From positions 1 to 64,000 of the forward strand of contig JAFQTT010000012.1 of assembly GCA_017408885.1 (NCBI GenBank): 64,000 nt of DNA, in the 5' to 3' direction. How positions within the stretch are numbered: position 1 is the first letter of the stretch; every line of letters begins with the position of its first letter. Below the pieces are notes generated by a model. It did no database searches, was not told the origin of the DNA, and saw only the letters and a program-made list of their open reading frames with translations. This document shows positions 57,024 through 64,000 of this stretch, piece after piece. The translations under genes and the position numbers were made by a program. The stretch is from Methanocorpusculum sp. Its GTDB lineage: Archaea > Halobacteriota > Methanomicrobia > Methanomicrobiales > Methanocorpusculaceae.

Positions 57024-57055
57024 GAAAAGTGAGATGGGTTGTTCTCTCACTTTTC
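57024..57055. terminator. Perfect 11-bp hairpin
   Basis: GAAAAGTGAGA (57024-57034) pairs with TCTCACTTTTC (57045-57055) with a ten-base loop. It lies downstream of the 164-aa minus-strand gene and is likely its terminator. A second small hairpin, TATCAG-CATT-CTGATA, is adjacent (57056-57071). Confidence 0.5.
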
Positions 57056-57179
57056 TATCAGCATTCTGATAAGATATTCTTCTATCATTAAGCAGATGCA
57101 AAGCAGCCAGTATAGGAAATACTGAACCGGCTCTTCACAGATGAAGTCCTGGATTTTCTCCCGGAGCTTTTGTTTGTGT

Positions 57180-57674
57180 TTATGCTCCTGCCTCTTCTCC
57201 GCCGAAGATGGCAAAGGTATCTGCCCAGGTTTCGATTGCTTCGATGGTTGCATCTTCTGCAAATCCGGTGACATGGATGTATTCGCGGGTGAATGTGATG
57301 ATGAAGGTATCTTCTTCTCTTTCGCAGGAGTATTTGACACTCCAGGTGTCATCTTCGGAATCGCGGGAGGCAGACCCTCCAACTCCTGCTACAGTTTCAG
57401 CGGCTTCAGTTCCGGTAAGAAGAGATGCCATGTCGTTGTATGCAGTTTTGTCTGCTGCGTAGCAGTTGATGTAACCTTTGTCATCTCCTGCGGCATCGAA
57501 GTACTCGACCTTTACCTTGTAGGAGGAAGTGGATGCAGCTTTTCTGGTTATGGCCATACTTTCGTCTGCAAGGAAGTTTGCAATTCCTGCCTCAAAGTCG
57601 TCGATGTTTTCGATTTTGTTGTAGGTTCTTTTGGCGGTTCTGGATTTTGCGGTTTCAACAAAGTTAGATGTCAT
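57180..57674 (-). CDS. Soluble protein of unknown function
   Basis: I do not recognise this 164-aa protein. It starts MTSNFVETAKSRTAKRTYNK. The rest is alternating beta/alpha in pattern, with VKVEYFDAAGDDKGYINCYA and FIITFTREYIHVTGF as beta-like stretches, ending acidic (FAIFGGEEAGA). No membrane span. The leader upstream contains a perfect hairpin GGACAGA-GATG-TCTGTCC (57689-57706) next to the ATG, so translation may be controlled. A Cys-rich frame on the other strand is less plausible. Confidence 0.7.
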   Translation of the reverse strand: MTSNFVETAKSRTAKRTYNKIENIDDFEAGIANFLADESMAITRKAASTSSYKVKVEYFDAAGDDKGYINCYAADKTAYNDMASLLTGTEAAETVAGVGGSASRDSEDDTWSVKYSCEREEDTFIITFTREYIHVTGFAEDATIEAIETWADTFAIFGGEEAGA

Positions 57675-57752
57675 GGTTTTCTCCGTCTGGACAGAGATGT
57701 CTGTCCTGTTTTGGTTTTCGAGAAGGAGAAGATACAGAGAAAAAAGCAGTTA

Positions 57753-57785
57753 GAGAGAGCAGGTGCTTTTCTTCTCTGCTCTCTC
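57753..57785 (-). terminator. Hairpin with T run between HTH operon and 164-aa gene
   Basis: GAGAGAGCAG (57753-57762) pairs with CTGCTCTCTC (57776-57785); on the minus strand TAACTGCTTTTTT follows. It would end the operon that begins at 60157. A TATA-like ATTTATATC lies just upstream on the minus strand (57813-57822). Confidence 0.5.
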
Positions 57786-57873
57786 TTCTCTGATTATCTA
57801 TTGCATTTTGTCTGATATAAATAGGTAGGAGGTCTGGGCGATTTTTGTGGAAAAATAGATTTGAGACTCTATT

Positions 57874-58074
57874 TCAGAGTCTCAGACGCTGTTTTGTTTC
57901 AGCTCCTATCAGGTAATACTTGGCTTTTAGACCATGGTGATGCATGGCATTTCTAACAGAGTCCAATGAGCATCCAAGTCTTCTGGAGATTCGAAGCGGA
58001 GTTCCTTCTTCATCGATTAAGGTTTGGAGTTTTCTTCGGTCTGCAAGTTCTTCAATGTCGCGCCATGTTTTCAT
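57874..58074 (-). CDS. Small helix-turn-helix protein
   Basis: This 66-aa protein starts MKTWRDIEELADRRKL and contains TPLRISRRLGCSLDSVRNAMHHHGL, a compact helix-turn-helix of the Homeodomain-like type. It is the last gene of the coupled operon 57874-60157 and overlaps the preceding gene by four bases (ATGA). Likely a regulator or a DNA-binding accessory of the cassette. Confidence 0.7.
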   Translation of the reverse strand: MKTWRDIEELADRRKLQTLIDEEGTPLRISRRLGCSLDSVRNAMHHHGLKAKYYLIGAETKQRLRL

Positions 58075-58628
58075 GATGTATCCTTCTCCTGTACAACCCA
58101 GTCGGTCGTTTTCATCCGTGTTTCGATGAGTTCTGCGGCATCTTCTGCAAGCATGGTGCGTGCAACATCACCTACCGTCACGTATTCGAAGTTCCGGATT
58201 TCTTTGTCCCCTATTTTTTCTTTGACGAGGTTATAGAGTGTTTTCTTTCCAAGAATCTTTGCAGCATCCGATGCTTTTATGCTTACAAGCTCTTCGAACA
58301 GTTCCGGATATTTCTGACGCATGAGAGAGATGTTTACACGGCTTTCCGGGCGTTCGATTGATATGATTTCATAGAGTTTAGAGGCGGTGTTTTGTTCGAT
58401 GAGTGAAGAAATTTCCTTTCTGTACTCTTCGTTTATGAAACCTGCAATCCATCGGGCTGCTTCCCTGCATTGATAGAGCCAGTATGCTCTTTCATGGCTT
58501 GAGAGTGCCGGACAAGGATATTTTGAGGTTATGGCATCCAGGAAATCCTGTGGTGTATGATACACCACAAGGTTGTCAGAGGCATTGGCTGCTTCAAGAT
58601 TTTCAGGTGTTATTTGTTCTGTGTTCAT
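58071..58628 (-). CDS. Unknown protein of the HNH operon
   Basis: This 185-aa protein is helical and charged. The middle part has YWLYQCREAARWIAGFINEEYRKEI, and the later part has VSIKASDAAKILGKKTLYNLVKEKIGD, which resembles a helix-turn-helix. I do not recognise the family. Start and end overlap the neighbours by four bases each (58625-58628, 58071-58074), so it is made in fixed ratio with the HNH protein. Confidence 0.7.
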   Translation of the reverse strand: MNTEQITPENLEAANASDNLVVYHTPQDFLDAITSKYPCPALSSHERAYWLYQCREAARWIAGFINEEYRKEISSLIEQNTASKLYEIISIERPESRVNISLMRQKYPELFEELVSIKASDAAKILGKKTLYNLVKEKIGDKEIRNFEYVTVGDVARTMLAEDAAELIETRMKTTDWVVQEKDTS

Positions 58629-59311
58629 ATGTCACCTCTGATGATACAGCGTACAGTTGTCATTGTTATGTTGTAACGCCTGGCAATCTGTAAGAGAGAT
58701 GTTCCGTTTGAGGCTTCTTTTCGTATACGGCTTTGGATGTCTGGATTTATTTGTGAAGCTTCTTCTTTGGCACGCTCCAGATTTTGTTCACGCGGCGGGT
58801 TTGTTTTGTATCGCTGATAGGTTACAATCCTGCGAATGGTGGTTTCTGATACACCGTATTGTTCTGCAAGTGTGCGTCTTGAGTATCCTTCTTTGTGCAG
58901 CTTTCGAATTTCTTCGGCATCAGCGAAGGTTAGTGCAAGGCTGCTTCGTGCAGTGTTGTCATGTCCTGTTATCAGCTGGAGGTTTTGAAGGCGGTTGTCC
59001 TCTTTGTTTCCGTTGATGTGGTCTATCTGGTATTCGGCATCAGGGATTCCATGAGCTGCTATCCAGATGATTCGATGAACCCGAAAGATTTGTTTGTGGT
59101 CGGTTACGGTTAAATATCCGTTTCTTTTGGGTGATTCTTTGAGGTTTGCTTTTTTGACCGTTGAGTATATGTGTCCGGTGTCAAGTGACGGGCGCCATAT
59201 GCCGCGATCGATTCTGCGCTGGATTTCAGCATCGTTTTTTCGGCAGTAGTGTTCGGTTGGGAGGATAGTGTTCTCCTGTGTCTCCGAAGAATGGGTTGGA
59301 TTTTGCGTCAT
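58625..59311 (-). CDS. HNH endonuclease with two C-terminal DNA-binding repeats
   Basis: This 228-aa protein has an HNH_3-type nuclease core (about residues 78-125: HRIIWIAAHGIPDAEYQIDH, INGNKEDNRLQNLQLITGHD), as in phage and intron homing nucleases. It is followed by two helix-turn-helix segments: LTFADAEEIRKLHKEGYSRR with TLAEQYGVSETTIRRI, and GTSLLQIARRYNITMTTVRC. Homing-type HNH enzymes are often found alone; being third in a coupled operon with other DNA-binding proteins is unusual. It may act with its neighbours in DNA exclusion or element movement. Confidence 0.85.
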   Translation of the reverse strand: MTQNPTHSSETQENTILPTEHYCRKNDAEIQRRIDRGIWRPSLDTGHIYSTVKKANLKESPKRNGYLTVTDHKQIFRVHRIIWIAAHGIPDAEYQIDHINGNKEDNRLQNLQLITGHDNTARSSLALTFADAEEIRKLHKEGYSRRTLAEQYGVSETTIRRIVTYQRYKTNPPREQNLERAKEEASQINPDIQSRIRKEASNGTSLLQIARRYNITMTTVRCIIRGDI

Positions 59312-59592
59312 TGTTTTTCCTCCATGATAGAGAGGAATGCAAGTTCTGCTCCCTGCAGGAAGATTTCATCAGTCCTGGAGGTGACAGATATCTCAGCAAT
59401 TAGTGCCTGAATGCCTTTCATGCATGCTGAAAAATGGCTTTGGTCAGATGCGGTTTCGAAACATTTTCTGCATGCAAGGATGAGTTCAGTGCGGTACTGT
59501 TCGTTTGTTTGTATGCTGTATCTTTTGGGGTGCGTGGACTCTGCATAGATTGCAGGGTTGTCTGCATTTTGCGGAGGTGTTGGTATATTCAT
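59308..59592 (-). CDS. Unknown small protein of the HNH operon
   Basis: This 94-aa protein has a disordered Pro/Asn-rich N-terminus (MNIPTPPQNADNP) and two amphipathic helices (TELILACRKCFETASDQSHF and DEIFLQGAELAFLSIMEEK). Family unknown. It overlaps the HNH gene by four bases (ATGA). Confidence 0.65.
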   Translation of the reverse strand: MNIPTPPQNADNPAIYAESTHPKRYSIQTNEQYRTELILACRKCFETASDQSHFSACMKGIQALIAEISVTSRTDEIFLQGAELAFLSIMEEKQ

Positions 59593-59635
59593 GATTTTAT
59601 GTCCGATATTTTGTTTGGCGGTGATATTCAGGGTT

Positions 59636-60157
59636 TTATTCCTGATTTGTTCTGTATTCCATCTGTTCTTCCCTGTAGCGGATAAGTTCAGTTCTGTTTA
59701 CGGCGTCGAATGCAGTGTATGCTTCTTTCAAATCGCTTTCGGTTACCCAGATTCCGGTTTGTTCGCGGTAGATGGCACGGATGTCTTTCCAGGTGCTGGT
59801 AAAGGCGATGTCTTTTCCTTTCATGGCGATTACAGGAAACAGGTTTTCACGAATTATGGTCTGCAGGTCTGATAAGATCTGTTCTTCTGAGATTTTAGGA
59901 ACTGATTTTTCCATCCAGATTTTGAGTGAATCCGGAAGGGTTGGCAGATGTTGAGATATGCCGGGTTGTCCTTGAATGGTGCTGGTTTGGTTTGTGGTCT
60001 CATCAGCTGAGGTTCCAAGCAGAACTGCATATGAAACTGCAGTGAAGAATTCAGCACGGGATGCATATCCGAGGCGGTGTATTCTGCGGTCTAGTTTTTC
60101 TATCAGTCCGGCATCTAGCCGGAAGTAGAACATTGGTTTGTCTGGATTTTTGCTCAC
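59636..60157 (-). CDS. Ribbon-helix-helix-type DNA-binding protein
   Basis: GTG start at 60157, 173 aa. The N-terminus (MFYFRLDAGLIEKLDRRIHRLGYASRAEFFTAV) has the beta strand followed by two helices of RHH/CopG proteins. The remaining 110 residues are helical and unrecognised (IWVTESDLKEAYTAFDAV). It is the first gene of the operon and a good candidate for its autoregulator. A palindrome-like ATCGAT-ATTTT-ATTGAT lies in the AT-rich region upstream (60319-60335). Confidence 0.75.
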   Translation of the reverse strand: MSKNPDKPMFYFRLDAGLIEKLDRRIHRLGYASRAEFFTAVSYAVLLGTSADETTNQTSTIQGQPGISQHLPTLPDSLKIWMEKSVPKISEEQILSDLQTIIRENLFPVIAMKGKDIAFTSTWKDIRAIYREQTGIWVTESDLKEAYTAFDAVNRTELIRYREEQMEYRTNQE

Positions 60158-60599
60158 ATTTTACTGTATCCTATGGTGGTTGGTATTTCCTGCTGCCTGA
60201 TATCTGCAGCCGGTTTTTTCTGTCTCAATGCAGGATTTAGAGTGTTTCTGCATCTCGACAAAACAGCATGTGTTTTGCGATATATTTTAATATTTTCAAT
60301 CATAATTTTGCAAAATAATCGATATTTTATTGATTTTAAGAATATGATGTCTTGCGAATATACGCGGAAGTTATGTAAATTCGTTATTTTGATTCGTCAT
60401 TTTAGGAAAGAAAAAACTGCCGCGCATGCAAAGACGTTTTTCTGCAATTGCGGGGCTTATAGTGTGCTCAGGTATGGTGTGTACCCGGCAAGGTCAGAAA
60501 AGAGCTCGGATGTTTTGTGGATTTTATGTTAGCATGAAGGAAAAATAGGTGTGAGAGATGATATTGGTTTTGGTTGTTTGTGTTTTTGCGGAACTTATA
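60158..60599. other. Non-coding AT-rich region
   Basis: No believable gene. The core 60270-60410 is very AT-rich, with TAAAATATATCGC (minus-strand TATA, 60278-60290) and ATCGAT-ATTTT-ATTGAT. It probably holds the promoter and operator of the RHH-HNH operon. An origin or attachment site cannot be excluded. Confidence 0.45.
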
Positions 60600-60866
60600 T
60601 TACTGAGTCTCTAATTTCCAGTATCCTTTCCTGCTGCTGCCTACCCGAATGATAATATTATTTTCTTTCAGCAAAAGTATGGTTTTTCGAATCTGTCTAT
60701 CAGATATTCCAAGAATATCAGTAAGTTCTTTTTGTGTGATTTCAGGATTTTGCTTTATGTATTCAAGTATTTTATCTTCATTCTTTGAAAGGAGATGGAA
60801 TATAGATGTTTTGATGACTAATACAATAATACAATCGTAAAAAGTACTATATCCTCTCAAAAACAT
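60600..60866 (-). CDS. Winged-helix protein, possible Fic partner
   Basis: The domain from about residue 25 (NEDKILEYIKQNPEITQKEL, then TDILGISDRQIRKTILLLKENNIIIRVGSSRKGYWKLE) is a winged helix like those at the C-termini of Fic and RecG-type regulators. Starts are possible at 60866, 60878 and 60899 (88, 92 or 99 aa); 60866 avoids overlap with the fic gene. The two genes diverge from one short shared region, so this protein may act as antitoxin or repressor. Confidence 0.65.
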   Translation of the reverse strand: MFLRGYSTFYDCIIVLVIKTSIFHLLSKNEDKILEYIKQNPEITQKELTDILGISDRQIRKTILLLKENNIIIRVGSSRKGYWKLETQ

Positions 60867-60879
60867 ATTATGTATCATA

Positions 60880-61281
60880 GTGCTATCGGAAGAAGACACT
60901 TCATTTACAGTCGCCCAGGTTTGTGAGATTAACTCCAGAATATTAGAAAATTCCCCGGATTTACTTGAAAGAAATCTCGGTGGTGTTATGCGGGATGAGG
61001 CAACTGTTGAATGGCTGCTTTTGGAGATTGAGAGCTTGGAAGATGTATTTGATAAAGCAGCAACAGTACTGCAAAAGATTGCAACGCGTCATCCATTTAC
61101 CCAAGGGAATAAGCGGACAGCTGTCGTTTTTGCAAACATGATTCTCATTATGGCTGGATTTGAAATCGATGTATCTCCTAGTAAATTGAATACTGATATT
61201 CGAGAGTTGATTAATGCAAATTGGAGTGTGGATGCAGTATACGATTGGCTGAAAGAAAATTCTGTAAAAATAGATGAATAG
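60880..61281 (+). CDS. Fic/Doc-family toxin-like protein
   Basis: GTG start at 60880 gives 133 aa. The catalytic block is HPFTQGNKRTA (H71-A81), the Doc form of HPFxxGNKRTA, with an upstream FTVAQVCEINSRIL helix. Doc-type proteins phosphorylate EF-Tu; Fic types AMP-modify targets. No inhibitory (S/T)xxxE(G/N) helix is clear, which fits toxins paired with a separate antitoxin. The divergent winged-helix gene is the candidate partner. TACTATATCC (60846-60855) lies 25-34 bases upstream. Confidence 0.87.
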   Translation: MLSEEDTSFTVAQVCEINSRILENSPDLLERNLGGVMRDEATVEWLLLEIESLEDVFDKAATVLQKIATRHPFTQGNKRTAVVFANMILIMAGFEIDVSPSKLNTDIRELINANWSVDAVYDWLKENSVKIDE

Positions 61282-61331
61282 ATATTTTTCAAAATCAGAG
61301 ATATATTAACAATCTCAAAAAACAGTTTGGA

Positions 61332-61571
61332 TTATTCTGCAAGTAAATCCAAACCATCTTTATGTTTTTTCATTGTTCTCATGAATGCTTTCTGCTGAAC
61401 ATCGGTAAGGATATTTGGTTGTGATATAGAGAGCGTGCCAGCAAATGATGGCGGAATTCCAAATGGATAGGGAACTGCAGATGTCCCCACCATGTAACAT
61501 GCAGAACTGTTTACACTACCAGAAGTTGGGTGCTGAAACGCTTCCGGTTTCTGGATGAAAGGACGTGTCAT
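61332..61571 (-). CDS. Small protein coupled to SDH-type protease
   Basis: The start at 61571 (MTRPFIQKPEAFQHP) overlaps the protease stop by four bases (ATGA), giving 79 aa. It is Pro/Ser/Gly-rich (TSAVPYPFGIPPSFAGTLSI) with a helical C-terminus (QQKAFMRTMKKHKDGLDLL). Family unknown. Being coupled to a protease, it could be a substrate, an inhibitor or an adaptor. Confidence 0.65.
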   Translation of the reverse strand: MTRPFIQKPEAFQHPTSGSVNSSACYMVGTSAVPYPFGIPPSFAGTLSISQPNILTDVQQKAFMRTMKKHKDGLDLLAE

Positions 61572-62629
61572 TTTCTTCTCCAATAGCCATTACTAATTAC
61601 ACCGATATGGTAATTAAGCTTTAGGTCAGGGGTTTTTGTGATGGTTAATTGTTTGAGAGAATGGAAACCACAGCAGAGTCTAGTACTTTCAAGAGATGCA
61701 TGGAGAAGTTCAAAATTAAATATCCCGCCATCTGATAAAGCAGTACTTAATTGTTCATATGTGTCTTTGGAGATTCCGTTTTCCGTATCAAGACCAAGTT
61801 TTTCCAGGTATTCATCTGTTGTGAGGAGTTCAATTAAAGGATCAAACGGGATTCTGCATTTCATCTCTCCTTCAAAATCAAGCCAGACGTCCCAGAGCAA
61901 ATCCTCTATTTCTTTTGTAGAGGATTTGATGGGAAGACCAAGATCTTTTGCTTCTTTTCTTCCAATGGTGTAACCATGATGGTAGAATGATTTATTGAGG
62001 CTGTTTACAATCTTGTCTGCCTTGTCTTCTGTTTTCATGTGCGTTAGAAGGAGCTTTTTTCCCAATGACTCGGTGAGTTTGGTGCTTTTTCTTGCCATTC
62101 CTATGTCTAAAGCACTTACTTTATCACAAAGATTCTGGAATGCAGCCCCCATTTCTTCCTGCTCTGAGAGACCAACCTCATTTTTTACGAAATCAAGATA
62201 GTATGTGAGATGATCTGCTGAGAACTGGGTTTGGATTCCCTTATCGGTAATTCCTGTTATCTGAGGGTCGACCGGACCAAAATTTGCAAACGGGTGCATT
62301 ATTATCTGATCTGCTCCAAGAGCCAGAAGTGTTGCAGCACTGTTTGCAGAAAATGGGACCAGAACACCAATACTTTTGAAACGCTCGCGAAGGAGGGTTA
62401 TTATTCTCCAGGGAACGATTGGATCGCCGCCATTACTTACAATGAGTACGTCTATTGATTTTTCTGTGCTTGGGATTTTTGAAATCTGTGCACAGAACTC
62501 GGTGATAACATCAGGAGCCATGCGCCCTCCGCCATCACCATCGCGTGAGCTGGTAACATACGCGATAAGCGGGCGTCTGCGTATTTTCTCAATTTTTGCA
62601 TAGAGTTTGCGGCGTTCCTGATATCCCAT
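61568..62629 (-). CDS. SDH-type serine protease (ClpP/SppA fold)
   Basis: This 353-aa protein has the ClpP/crotonase-fold pattern of serine dehydrogenase-proteinase family members: LIVSNGGDPIVPWRI, then VPFSANSAATLLALGAD with the likely nucleophile Ser97, then PFANFGPVDPQI and the Lys-rich helix region. No signal peptide, so it is cytosolic. Members of this family are often near defence genes, but their targets are not known. It has a long C-terminal extension (about 230-353). Coupled to a 79-aa gene and located by a KAP NTPase. Confidence 0.85.
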   Translation of the reverse strand: MGYQERRKLYAKIEKIRRRPLIAYVTSSRDGDGGGRMAPDVITEFCAQISKIPSTEKSIDVLIVSNGGDPIVPWRIITLLRERFKSIGVLVPFSANSAATLLALGADQIIMHPFANFGPVDPQITGITDKGIQTQFSADHLTYYLDFVKNEVGLSEQEEMGAAFQNLCDKVSALDIGMARKSTKLTESLGKKLLLTHMKTEDKADKIVNSLNKSFYHHGYTIGRKEAKDLGLPIKSSTKEIEDLLWDVWLDFEGEMKCRIPFDPLIELLTTDEYLEKLGLDTENGISKDTYEQLSTALSDGGIFNFELLHASLESTRLCCGFHSLKQLTITKTPDLKLNYHIGVISNGYWRRK

Positions 62630-63210
62630 GTTAGATAATATTCGCTCAAAGATAATTATAGTTTCCCAATCTGAATATAAGGCAGATGATAGGAAGAATA
62701 TTTGTCATCCATCATCTGTCACCAGTGTCTGGAGATTTTTGGATAGGCCGGGTGTAGTGGGTAGTTAGCGGAGATAATAGAGATGGAATCGGTGGTAATT
62801 AGAGAGATAGTGAGGCAGATAGCTGGCGCTGGTTGTGAGGGTGATGGATGAATGGGCAAAAAAAGGAGGTTTGATTGTACCATGTTCTTCTTTTTTCGTT
62901 GTTTTGAGAGTCGCCATTTTCTGCGTTGATATTTATGTGATAAGTTTCTAAACTAAACAACAAGAAGAGTTACTCCGGAGGAGAGATGAGTCTTGAAGAG
63001 AAGAGTTTCTCCGGTTGGTGTGCTGTTTTTTTGAAGGGGTGGCGGTGATGGATGATGGATGATTGGTTAAATAGACAGTATCTCAACCAATATAGTAAAT
63101 ATTTGATTATGATATGAATTGTGTTATTTATAATAGAATTTGAATGAAAGAATATGATGACATCAAACCAACAATACCCAACACAAAATTTATCTCATTT
63201 AAATCGTTAA
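62630..63210. other. Non-coding spacer with inverted repeat
   Basis: TCATCCATCATCTGTCACC (62705-62723) is inverted at 63044-63062 with two mismatches, framing about 320 bases. Another related GGGTGATGGATGA lies at 62839. The only small frame with a good ribosome site is 62986-63048. Otherwise nothing is recognised. Confidence 0.5.
62986..63048 (+). CDS. Possible 20-aa micro-ORF
   Basis: GGAGGAGAG directly precedes an ATG (62986), the start of a 20-aa frame, MSLEEKSFSGWCAVFLKGWR. The final 10 residues are hydrophobic and basic. Spacing of the ribosome site is acceptable. There is no homologue known to me. It might be a leader peptide. Confidence 0.25.
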   Translation: MSLEEKSFSGWCAVFLKGWR

Positions 63211-64000
63211 ATGTCATATATGCCATCACCATCCACATCTGTTTTAACTGATTTTGCAGACGATCAACTGAATCGTGAATACTTAGCAGATTATCTGACA
63301 ACGTTTATCCGTACAACACTGCCAGCAGTAAATACTAACTCTCTTGTTCTTGCGTTGAATTCAGCATGGGGTTCCGGGAAAACGTCATTTATTCAGATGT
63401 GGATAAATAAACTGAAGAAGACAAATGTAGCTGGTACTGATACAAATACAAAGAGTGGAGATGATGAAGATGTTATTGAGCCAAAACAGGAGTTCAACAT
63501 CATCTACTATAATGCCTGGGAGAATGATTCCTGTCCGGAAGCGATAATTCCCATTATCTGCAGTTTCAGCCAGCTTCTGGAAACAAGTGTTACAGAGAAA
63601 GACAAATCTGAAAAGCGGAAAGAGGTTATTCTCAACACCCTCAAAACACTCGGGCCGCGGGTTCTGAATGCAGTTGCCTGCGGGGTTCTGCATATCGACA
63701 GCGAAACTGGGAGGGAGATTGCATCATGTATTACTGATTCTGTATCTGAGAGTCTTACAACCGACCTTCCGCGGTCGATTTATGATGCCTATTCATCAAC
63801 ACAGGAAAAGAAAAATGCGTTTAAAGATCTTGCAAAAGAGTTTGCCACAGAGGATAAACCGCTTCTCATCTTCATTGATGAACTGGATCGCTGTCGTCCG
63901 ACATTTGCCATTGAGACGCTTGAATCGGTAAAGCATTTCTTTGACCTTCCTAATGTCATCTTTGTGTTTTCTCTGGACAGTACACAGTTGAAGAAATCCA
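63211..64000 (+). CDS. KAP-family P-loop NTPase (partial, right edge)
   Basis: Starts MSYMPSPSTSVLTDFADDQL at 63211 and stays open to the end of the window (263 codons visible). Walker A is NSAWGSGKTSF (50-60), followed by IYYNAWENDSCPE, and Walker B is PLLIFIDELDRCRP (about 217-230), then VIFVFSLDS. These are KAP NTPase signatures; several of these membrane-associated ATPases act in phage exclusion (PifA-like) or DNA segregation. The fold normally has membrane helices inside the NTPase domain; the stretch at residues 130-175 may contain them but is only weakly hydrophobic. The 3' half and any partner genes lie beyond the window. Confidence 0.88.
   Translation, partial: MSYMPSPSTSVLTDFADDQLNREYLADYLTTFIRTTLPAVNTNSLVLALNSAWGSGKTSFIQMWINKLKKTNVAGTDTNTKSGDDEDVIEPKQEFNIIYYNAWENDSCPEAIIPIICSFSQLLETSVTEKDKSEKRKEVILNTLKTLGPRVLNAVACGVLHIDSETGREIASCITDSVSESLTTDLPRSIYDAYSSTQEKKNAFKDLAKEFATEDKPLLIFIDELDRCRPTFAIETLESVKHFFDLPNVIFVFSLDSTQLKKS

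Follow-up and report, generated by a model that had tools for sequence, protein, structure and literature searches.

Phage satellites of the P4 and PICI type are small, have no virion genes, and carry hotspots of variable defence cargo. The locus described here has other counterparts as well. The omega protein of pSM19035, a ParB of the ribbon-helix-helix (RHH) type, goes with 7-bp repeats that follow one another without gaps, in direct and inverted orientation, around parS and promoters (PMC9499535). Phage T6 has anti-defence loci that the homing endonuclease SegB amplifies (PMC13096335), and STIV-like tailless icosahedral archaeal viruses and proviruses have a packaging-type ATPase (STIV B204, HerA) (PMC5894146). 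The operon that we analysed lies in a stretch of 64,000 nucleotides (hereafter, the window) from Methanocorpusculum, a gut methane-producing archaeon. Like the omega system, the module family to which it belongs combines an RHH protein with contiguous 7-bp repeats at the promoter, but it is chromosomal, has no ParA among the genes of the unit, and uses a heptad whose sequence changes from one locus to the next and follows the RHH strand. In the window copy, a palindrome takes the place of the heptads. Its nuclease resembles I-HmuI and the free-standing phage homing endonucleases of the HNH type in having an HNH_3 domain, a helix-turn-helix (HTH) region after it, and conserved HNH residues. It differs from them in its many copies and in its place within an operon that is translationally coupled and has a repressor candidate of its own. 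Provirus-like relatives of the module have, as STIV-like viruses do, a packaging-type ATPase beside a capsid candidate, whereas the window unit has neither. No similarity to known capsid proteins was detected for the candidate, a 320-aa protein. With the P4 and PICI satellites the unit shares its small size, the absence of virion genes, and variable defence cargo; unlike them, it has no integrase.

The five genes of the block span positions 57874–60157 of the window, all on the minus strand. The first encodes a 173-aa protein with a GTG start (59636–60157), which has an N-terminal RHH and a conserved C-terminal domain and has orthologues in two other genomes, G007 and G002. After a gap of 43 nt comes a 94-aa protein (59308–59592), whose homologues occur in C12/C6/C5/C11-type copies only. 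It is followed by a 228-aa I-HmuI-like HNH nuclease (58625–59311), by p185, a helical 185-aa protein of an orphan family (58071–58628), and by p66, a small HTH-like protein of 66 aa (57874–58074) and the most conserved of the five between copies in its own genome. The overlaps of 4 nt between the 94-aa and HNH genes (59308–59311), HNH and p185 (58625–58628), and p185 and p66 (58071–58074) bear out the layout of five genes with three such overlaps given by an earlier, sequence-only reading. Start codons are uncertain for several of the open reading frames. The genes are real, as judged from their sequences, because the comparison of the window with the same-place copy in G002, which is another species, gives dN/dS values of 0.09–0.22 for RHH, HNH, p185, and a downstream gene, p164, which corresponds to purifying selection.

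The protein assignments of that reading fared unevenly. The nuclease with two C-terminal HTH segments is recognisable (Pfam HNH_3, 6.7e-15; HTH_7 in two stretches, 7.1e-11); its family conserves the HNH residues, and the profile of the copies in its own genome matches the I-HmuI structure 1u3e at 3.6e-9. The RHH identity holds at the level of the family, whose profile matches the RHH structures of NikR at 5e-4, the single protein being below the Pfam cutoff; we predict that it is an autorepressor. The proposed HTH of p66 is present as a weak match (HTH_23, E 0.027, below cutoff). No HTH was found in p185, where one had been suggested: it has no Pfam or PHROG family, its AlphaFold model consists of one long helix and short helices (pLDDT 80, pTM 0.48), and comparison of this model with known folds gave no match. 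A relationship of p185 to DUF2800-type phage proteins was dropped, since the fold matches were weak and had no profile support. DNA binding, suggested for four of the five proteins, is thus supported for three but not for p185.

The block extends beyond 57874. Downstream lie p164, a conserved protein of 164 aa and of the alpha/beta type that always belongs to the unit (57180–57674, minus strand; AlphaFold pLDDT 92; no known relatives), and, directly after it, a small open reading frame with a single membrane helix (57047–57180, minus strand; start codon uncertain), conserved at that place in the copies compared. In two closed genomes, p164 follows 11 of 12 p66 sites at a distance of no more than 2.4 kb and on the same strand, whereas 20,000 random placements never gave more than 3. 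The idea that p164 is a triphosphate tunnel enzyme was rejected at a TM-score of about 0.3. The p164 leader (57700–57800, minus strand) contains two interleaved inverted repeats, read by eye, whose pairing is kept while the sequence varies between copies. Interleaved repeats of this kind, with complementarity kept despite sequence change, precede p164 at loci L009, L072, L076, and L083. They might form a pseudoknot or a pair of alternative hairpins.

Tandem 7-bp repeats lie upstream of the RHH genes, with at least one period-7 array at 36 of 44 loci and two arrays at 17, in opposite orientation in 16 of these 17. A stricter score leaves 37 arrays in 18.9 kb of upstream sequence and none in 362 kb of background, for which we took the remaining window and those loci of the same genomes that lack this RHH type. 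Repeat periods other than 7 show no enrichment, and no arrays lie upstream of copies that begin with a gene of another type. The heptad sequence is specific to the locus and tracks the beta-strand of the RHH. Between G007C5 and G010C19, 4 of 11 strand residues differ against 3 of 139 others, and the heptads are GGTACCA and GGGCCAT, respectively. Between G023C170 and G010C19, 1 of 11 strand residues differs against 46 of 139 others, and the heptads of G023C170, overlooked by the array detector, are of the GGCCC type, as predicted from its strand. In the pooled data, pairs whose heptads have changed show an excess of strand substitutions (Fisher p 0.001, for hand-chosen pairs; Mantel r 0.32, 0 of 5,000 permutations; both ignoring kinship). 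One exception, G018C8/G019C8, has an identical strand and different heptads. The window copy and its counterparts in G007 and G002 have no heptad array and keep a palindrome, CAAAACA-N5-TGTTTTG (60259–60277), which adjoins a TATA-like box, is a single site in the genome, and is a candidate operator of this copy.

The genome (1.55 Mb in 13 contigs) holds six copies of p185, each adjoined by p66, and the module has about six copies per genome. RHH and p164 are present in all 12 good-quality Methanocorpusculum genomes, and the family is almost absent outside the genus: p185 was found in G025 only, with two further weak matches, among 295 genomes of the phylum, and this RHH in G355 only, with one marginal match, among 232 genomes of the order. 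Most of the genomes are metagenome-assembled, and several copies lie near contig ends. We found no literature on such loci in Methanocorpusculum.

In both G355 and G025, the relatives of the module genes lie in provirus-like clusters. The cluster of G355 (L194) encodes RHH, a 188-aa protein, HNH, RecT (PF03837, 1.2e-21), p66, a Zn-ribbon-like protein, a 185-aa protein unrelated to p185, an ATPase (phrog_2666, head and packaging, 1.3e-18), and the 320-aa protein; RecT here takes the slot of p185, and inverted period-7 repeats lie upstream of RHH. That of G025 (L195) has an RHH-like protein, p185, the ATPase, and a 330-aa protein. A third cluster, within Methanocorpusculum (G017, L100), contains p66, an RHH-like protein recognised by eye, HNH, the ATPase, and a 315-aa protein 51% identical to the 320-aa protein of G355. 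No other fetched locus of the genus has the ATPase together with the capsid candidate, and at this one the genes for the RHH-like protein and HNH are divergent. The three clusters are related and stem from one order, in which they represent three genera or groups. A profile of the ATPase found matches in HerA (2e-8) and in the STIV packaging NTPase B204 (0.0035). The 320-aa protein is a candidate capsid protein by position and conservation; it had no sequence match to known capsid proteins in databases. At the sensitivity used, neither a search of IMG/VR with p164, p66, p185, RHH, the ATPase, and the capsid candidate nor a search of a phage set for this candidate and the genes of the provirus-like clusters gave a match. 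The idea that the genes might occur separately in relatives holds in part: the core genes stay together within Methanocorpusculum, but the provirus-like clusters have them among other genes, in one case with RecT where the 185-aa gene would be.

Copies often carry variable cargo of defence type. At 8 of about 25 loci it occupies the gap between p66 and p164 and comprises AbiLi with RloB, a Roco protein with a phosphoesterase domain, SoFic, DUF3800 (two loci), and PDDEXK_3 (three loci, two by visible similarity). At the window locus it lies instead upstream of the RHH gene, in a variable segment (60575–62700) that encodes a winged-HTH protein (60600–60899, minus strand), a Fic/Doc protein (60880–61281, plus strand), and a ClpP-like SDH-type protease (61568–62629, minus strand). 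This segment is replaced by AbiLi with RloB in G007 and is absent in G002. The island beside the unit (60600–64000 of the window, and on contig C12 to 65838; L117) contains HTH, Fic, the ClpP-like protease, and a KAP NTPase, with a XerC-like integrase at the contig end. In G002, the same locus (C22, L119, 9899–17414) has other large genes (327, 353, 833, and 366 aa), including kinase-like and methylase-like proteins identified by eye. G007 and G002 both conserve the non-coding stretch 62690–63090, despite having different genes on its two sides; the notion that it is a repeat was dropped because it is locus-specific and not repeated elsewhere in the genus.

The multiple copies, the co-occurrence of their genes, the purifying selection on these, the heptad arrays and their tracking of the RHH strand, the provirus-like relatives, and the turnover of cargo lead us to read the block as a paralogous copy of an early/regulatory module, RHH-controlled and without virion genes, retained from an undescribed lineage of temperate archaeal viruses. 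We hold this reading with about as much confidence as doubt. Points against it are the missing heptad array of the window copy, the capsid candidate that no database search supported, the divergence of the G017 genes, the G018C8/G019C8 exception, and the lack of an integrase among the unit genes. The sequence-only reading had come closest with a selfish cassette not described before: a module repeated across the genus, with relatives outside it in provirus-like clusters, fits that description, but neither a clean empty site nor target-site duplications at the ends of the block, which we looked for, were found. The junction of TopoVI-A with the MBL gene in G010, G011, and G023 (L136, L153, and L154), where the two are joined by a 4-nt overlap, was considered as an empty site, the MBL gene being a flank of the unit in the window. 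It is a derived rearrangement, since in G015, G017, G000, G007, and G002 alike the gene after TopoVI-A is an MFS gene. Palindromes of the REP-like type GCAAATC-N3-GATTTGC were dropped as element ends because they are genome-wide (49 in G015) and not specific to ends. They number 36–49 per genome (G015, G017, and G012), several beside units (e.g., L092 and L103), and the reversed control pattern has no match.

That no empty site was found also weighs on the most probable of the alternatives, a cargo cassette of homing type, in which the HNH would cut alleles that lack the cassette or differ from it, and repair would copy the cassette along with the adjoining defence genes. Gene conversion would thus spread it, irrespective of where it came from. 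The I-HmuI-type nuclease with conserved HNH residues, the difference in cargo between species at one locus, and the precedent of SegB speak for it, as do signs of exchange between copies. In the M. labreanum-like clade, p164 is homogenised within genomes (dS mostly 0.06–0.55, against mostly 0.5–1.8 for the neighbouring p66 and HNH), and gene sets are mosaic: the p66 of copy C5 in G000 resembles C12/C6, and its HNH and p185 resemble C11. However, the homogenised gene is p164 and not HNH. Moreover, the unit of the window locus has a dS similar to the values of the MBL and Uri/GIY-type genes that flank it, and this copy is therefore vertically inherited in G000, G007, and G002. We consider the homing cassette unlikely.

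Its position among defence-type genes, and copies that are diverse and under selection, could mean that the operon is itself an anti-virus system, with the RHH and HTH proteins as regulators or targeting factors, the HNH as effector, and copies that differ in specificity. The sequence-only reading had listed a defence module among its options, and defence-type genes do gather beside copies. Yet in PADLOC, whose scan concerned the HNH only among the five block proteins, this protein has generic matches of homing-endonuclease type and weak ones, without a specific defence family. About six resident copies in every genome would be unusual for such a system, and its relatives lie in provirus-like clusters. 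The operon is probably not a known defence system, and we regard an anti-virus function of its own as improbable.

The small size of the units, their lack of virion genes, the regulator genes that they have in common with the provirus, and their defence cargo would suit virus satellites that depend for packaging on a co-resident virus, for example the G017 provirus. We give this very little credence: the unit has no integrase, the window copy is inherited vertically, and the provirus was seen in one genome only. The least probable reading is a remnant of a plasmid partition system or replicon with the RHH as centromere-binding protein on the heptads, for although contiguous 7-bp repeats around the promoter recall pSM19035 omega/parS (PMC9499535) and are partition-like in form, the unit genes include no ParA, polymerase, or primase and gave no match of Rep type in Pfam or PHROGs, no plasmid match was found for p164, and the relatives adjoin a packaging-type ATPase. 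In our reading the block is neither a partition system nor the replicon core once proposed.

If the block is a retained early/regulatory module, its source would be a virus lineage with the capsid candidate and the HerA/packaging-type ATPase. The RHH protein would repress the operon at short sites around the promoter, clusters of 7-bp repeats in most copies and the palindrome in the window copy; the arrangement of gene and sites and the pSM19035 precedent (PMC9499535) suggest this. Each copy would have its own repressor-operator pair, as in the immunity groups of temperate viruses. Heptads within one genome are no more different than between genomes, and the immunity-group idea is therefore without that support; within-genome divergence as a sign of incompatibility was set aside for the same reason. 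The products of the operon would be the I-HmuI-type nuclease, p185, and the HTH protein, p185 being taken as recombination-related because RecT occupies its slot in a relative. Where repression is lacking, upon entry of a related virus or at an unrepressed copy, the HNH would cut the related DNA and recombination would follow, which may result in superinfection exclusion and in occasional exchange similar to homing. The loci have come to serve as sites of insertion and exchange of defence genes. A bolder version, which we think rather unlikely, is that the units form a new class of genomic elements of methanogens, capsid-less, virus-derived, and multi-copy, that have their own co-changing RHH–heptad pairs, exclude related viruses, act as landing sites for defence genes, and are perhaps satellites of a virus resident in the same cell, for which the G017 provirus would be an example.

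On the reading that we prefer, an orphan gene family of every good-quality genome of Methanocorpusculum is tied to a virus lineage of the same order that seems not to have been described. About 40 natural repressor-operator pairs, in which RHH strand and 7-bp site can be compared, make a recognition code testable. Finally, the loci suggest a route by which defence genes anchor in archaeal chromosomes.
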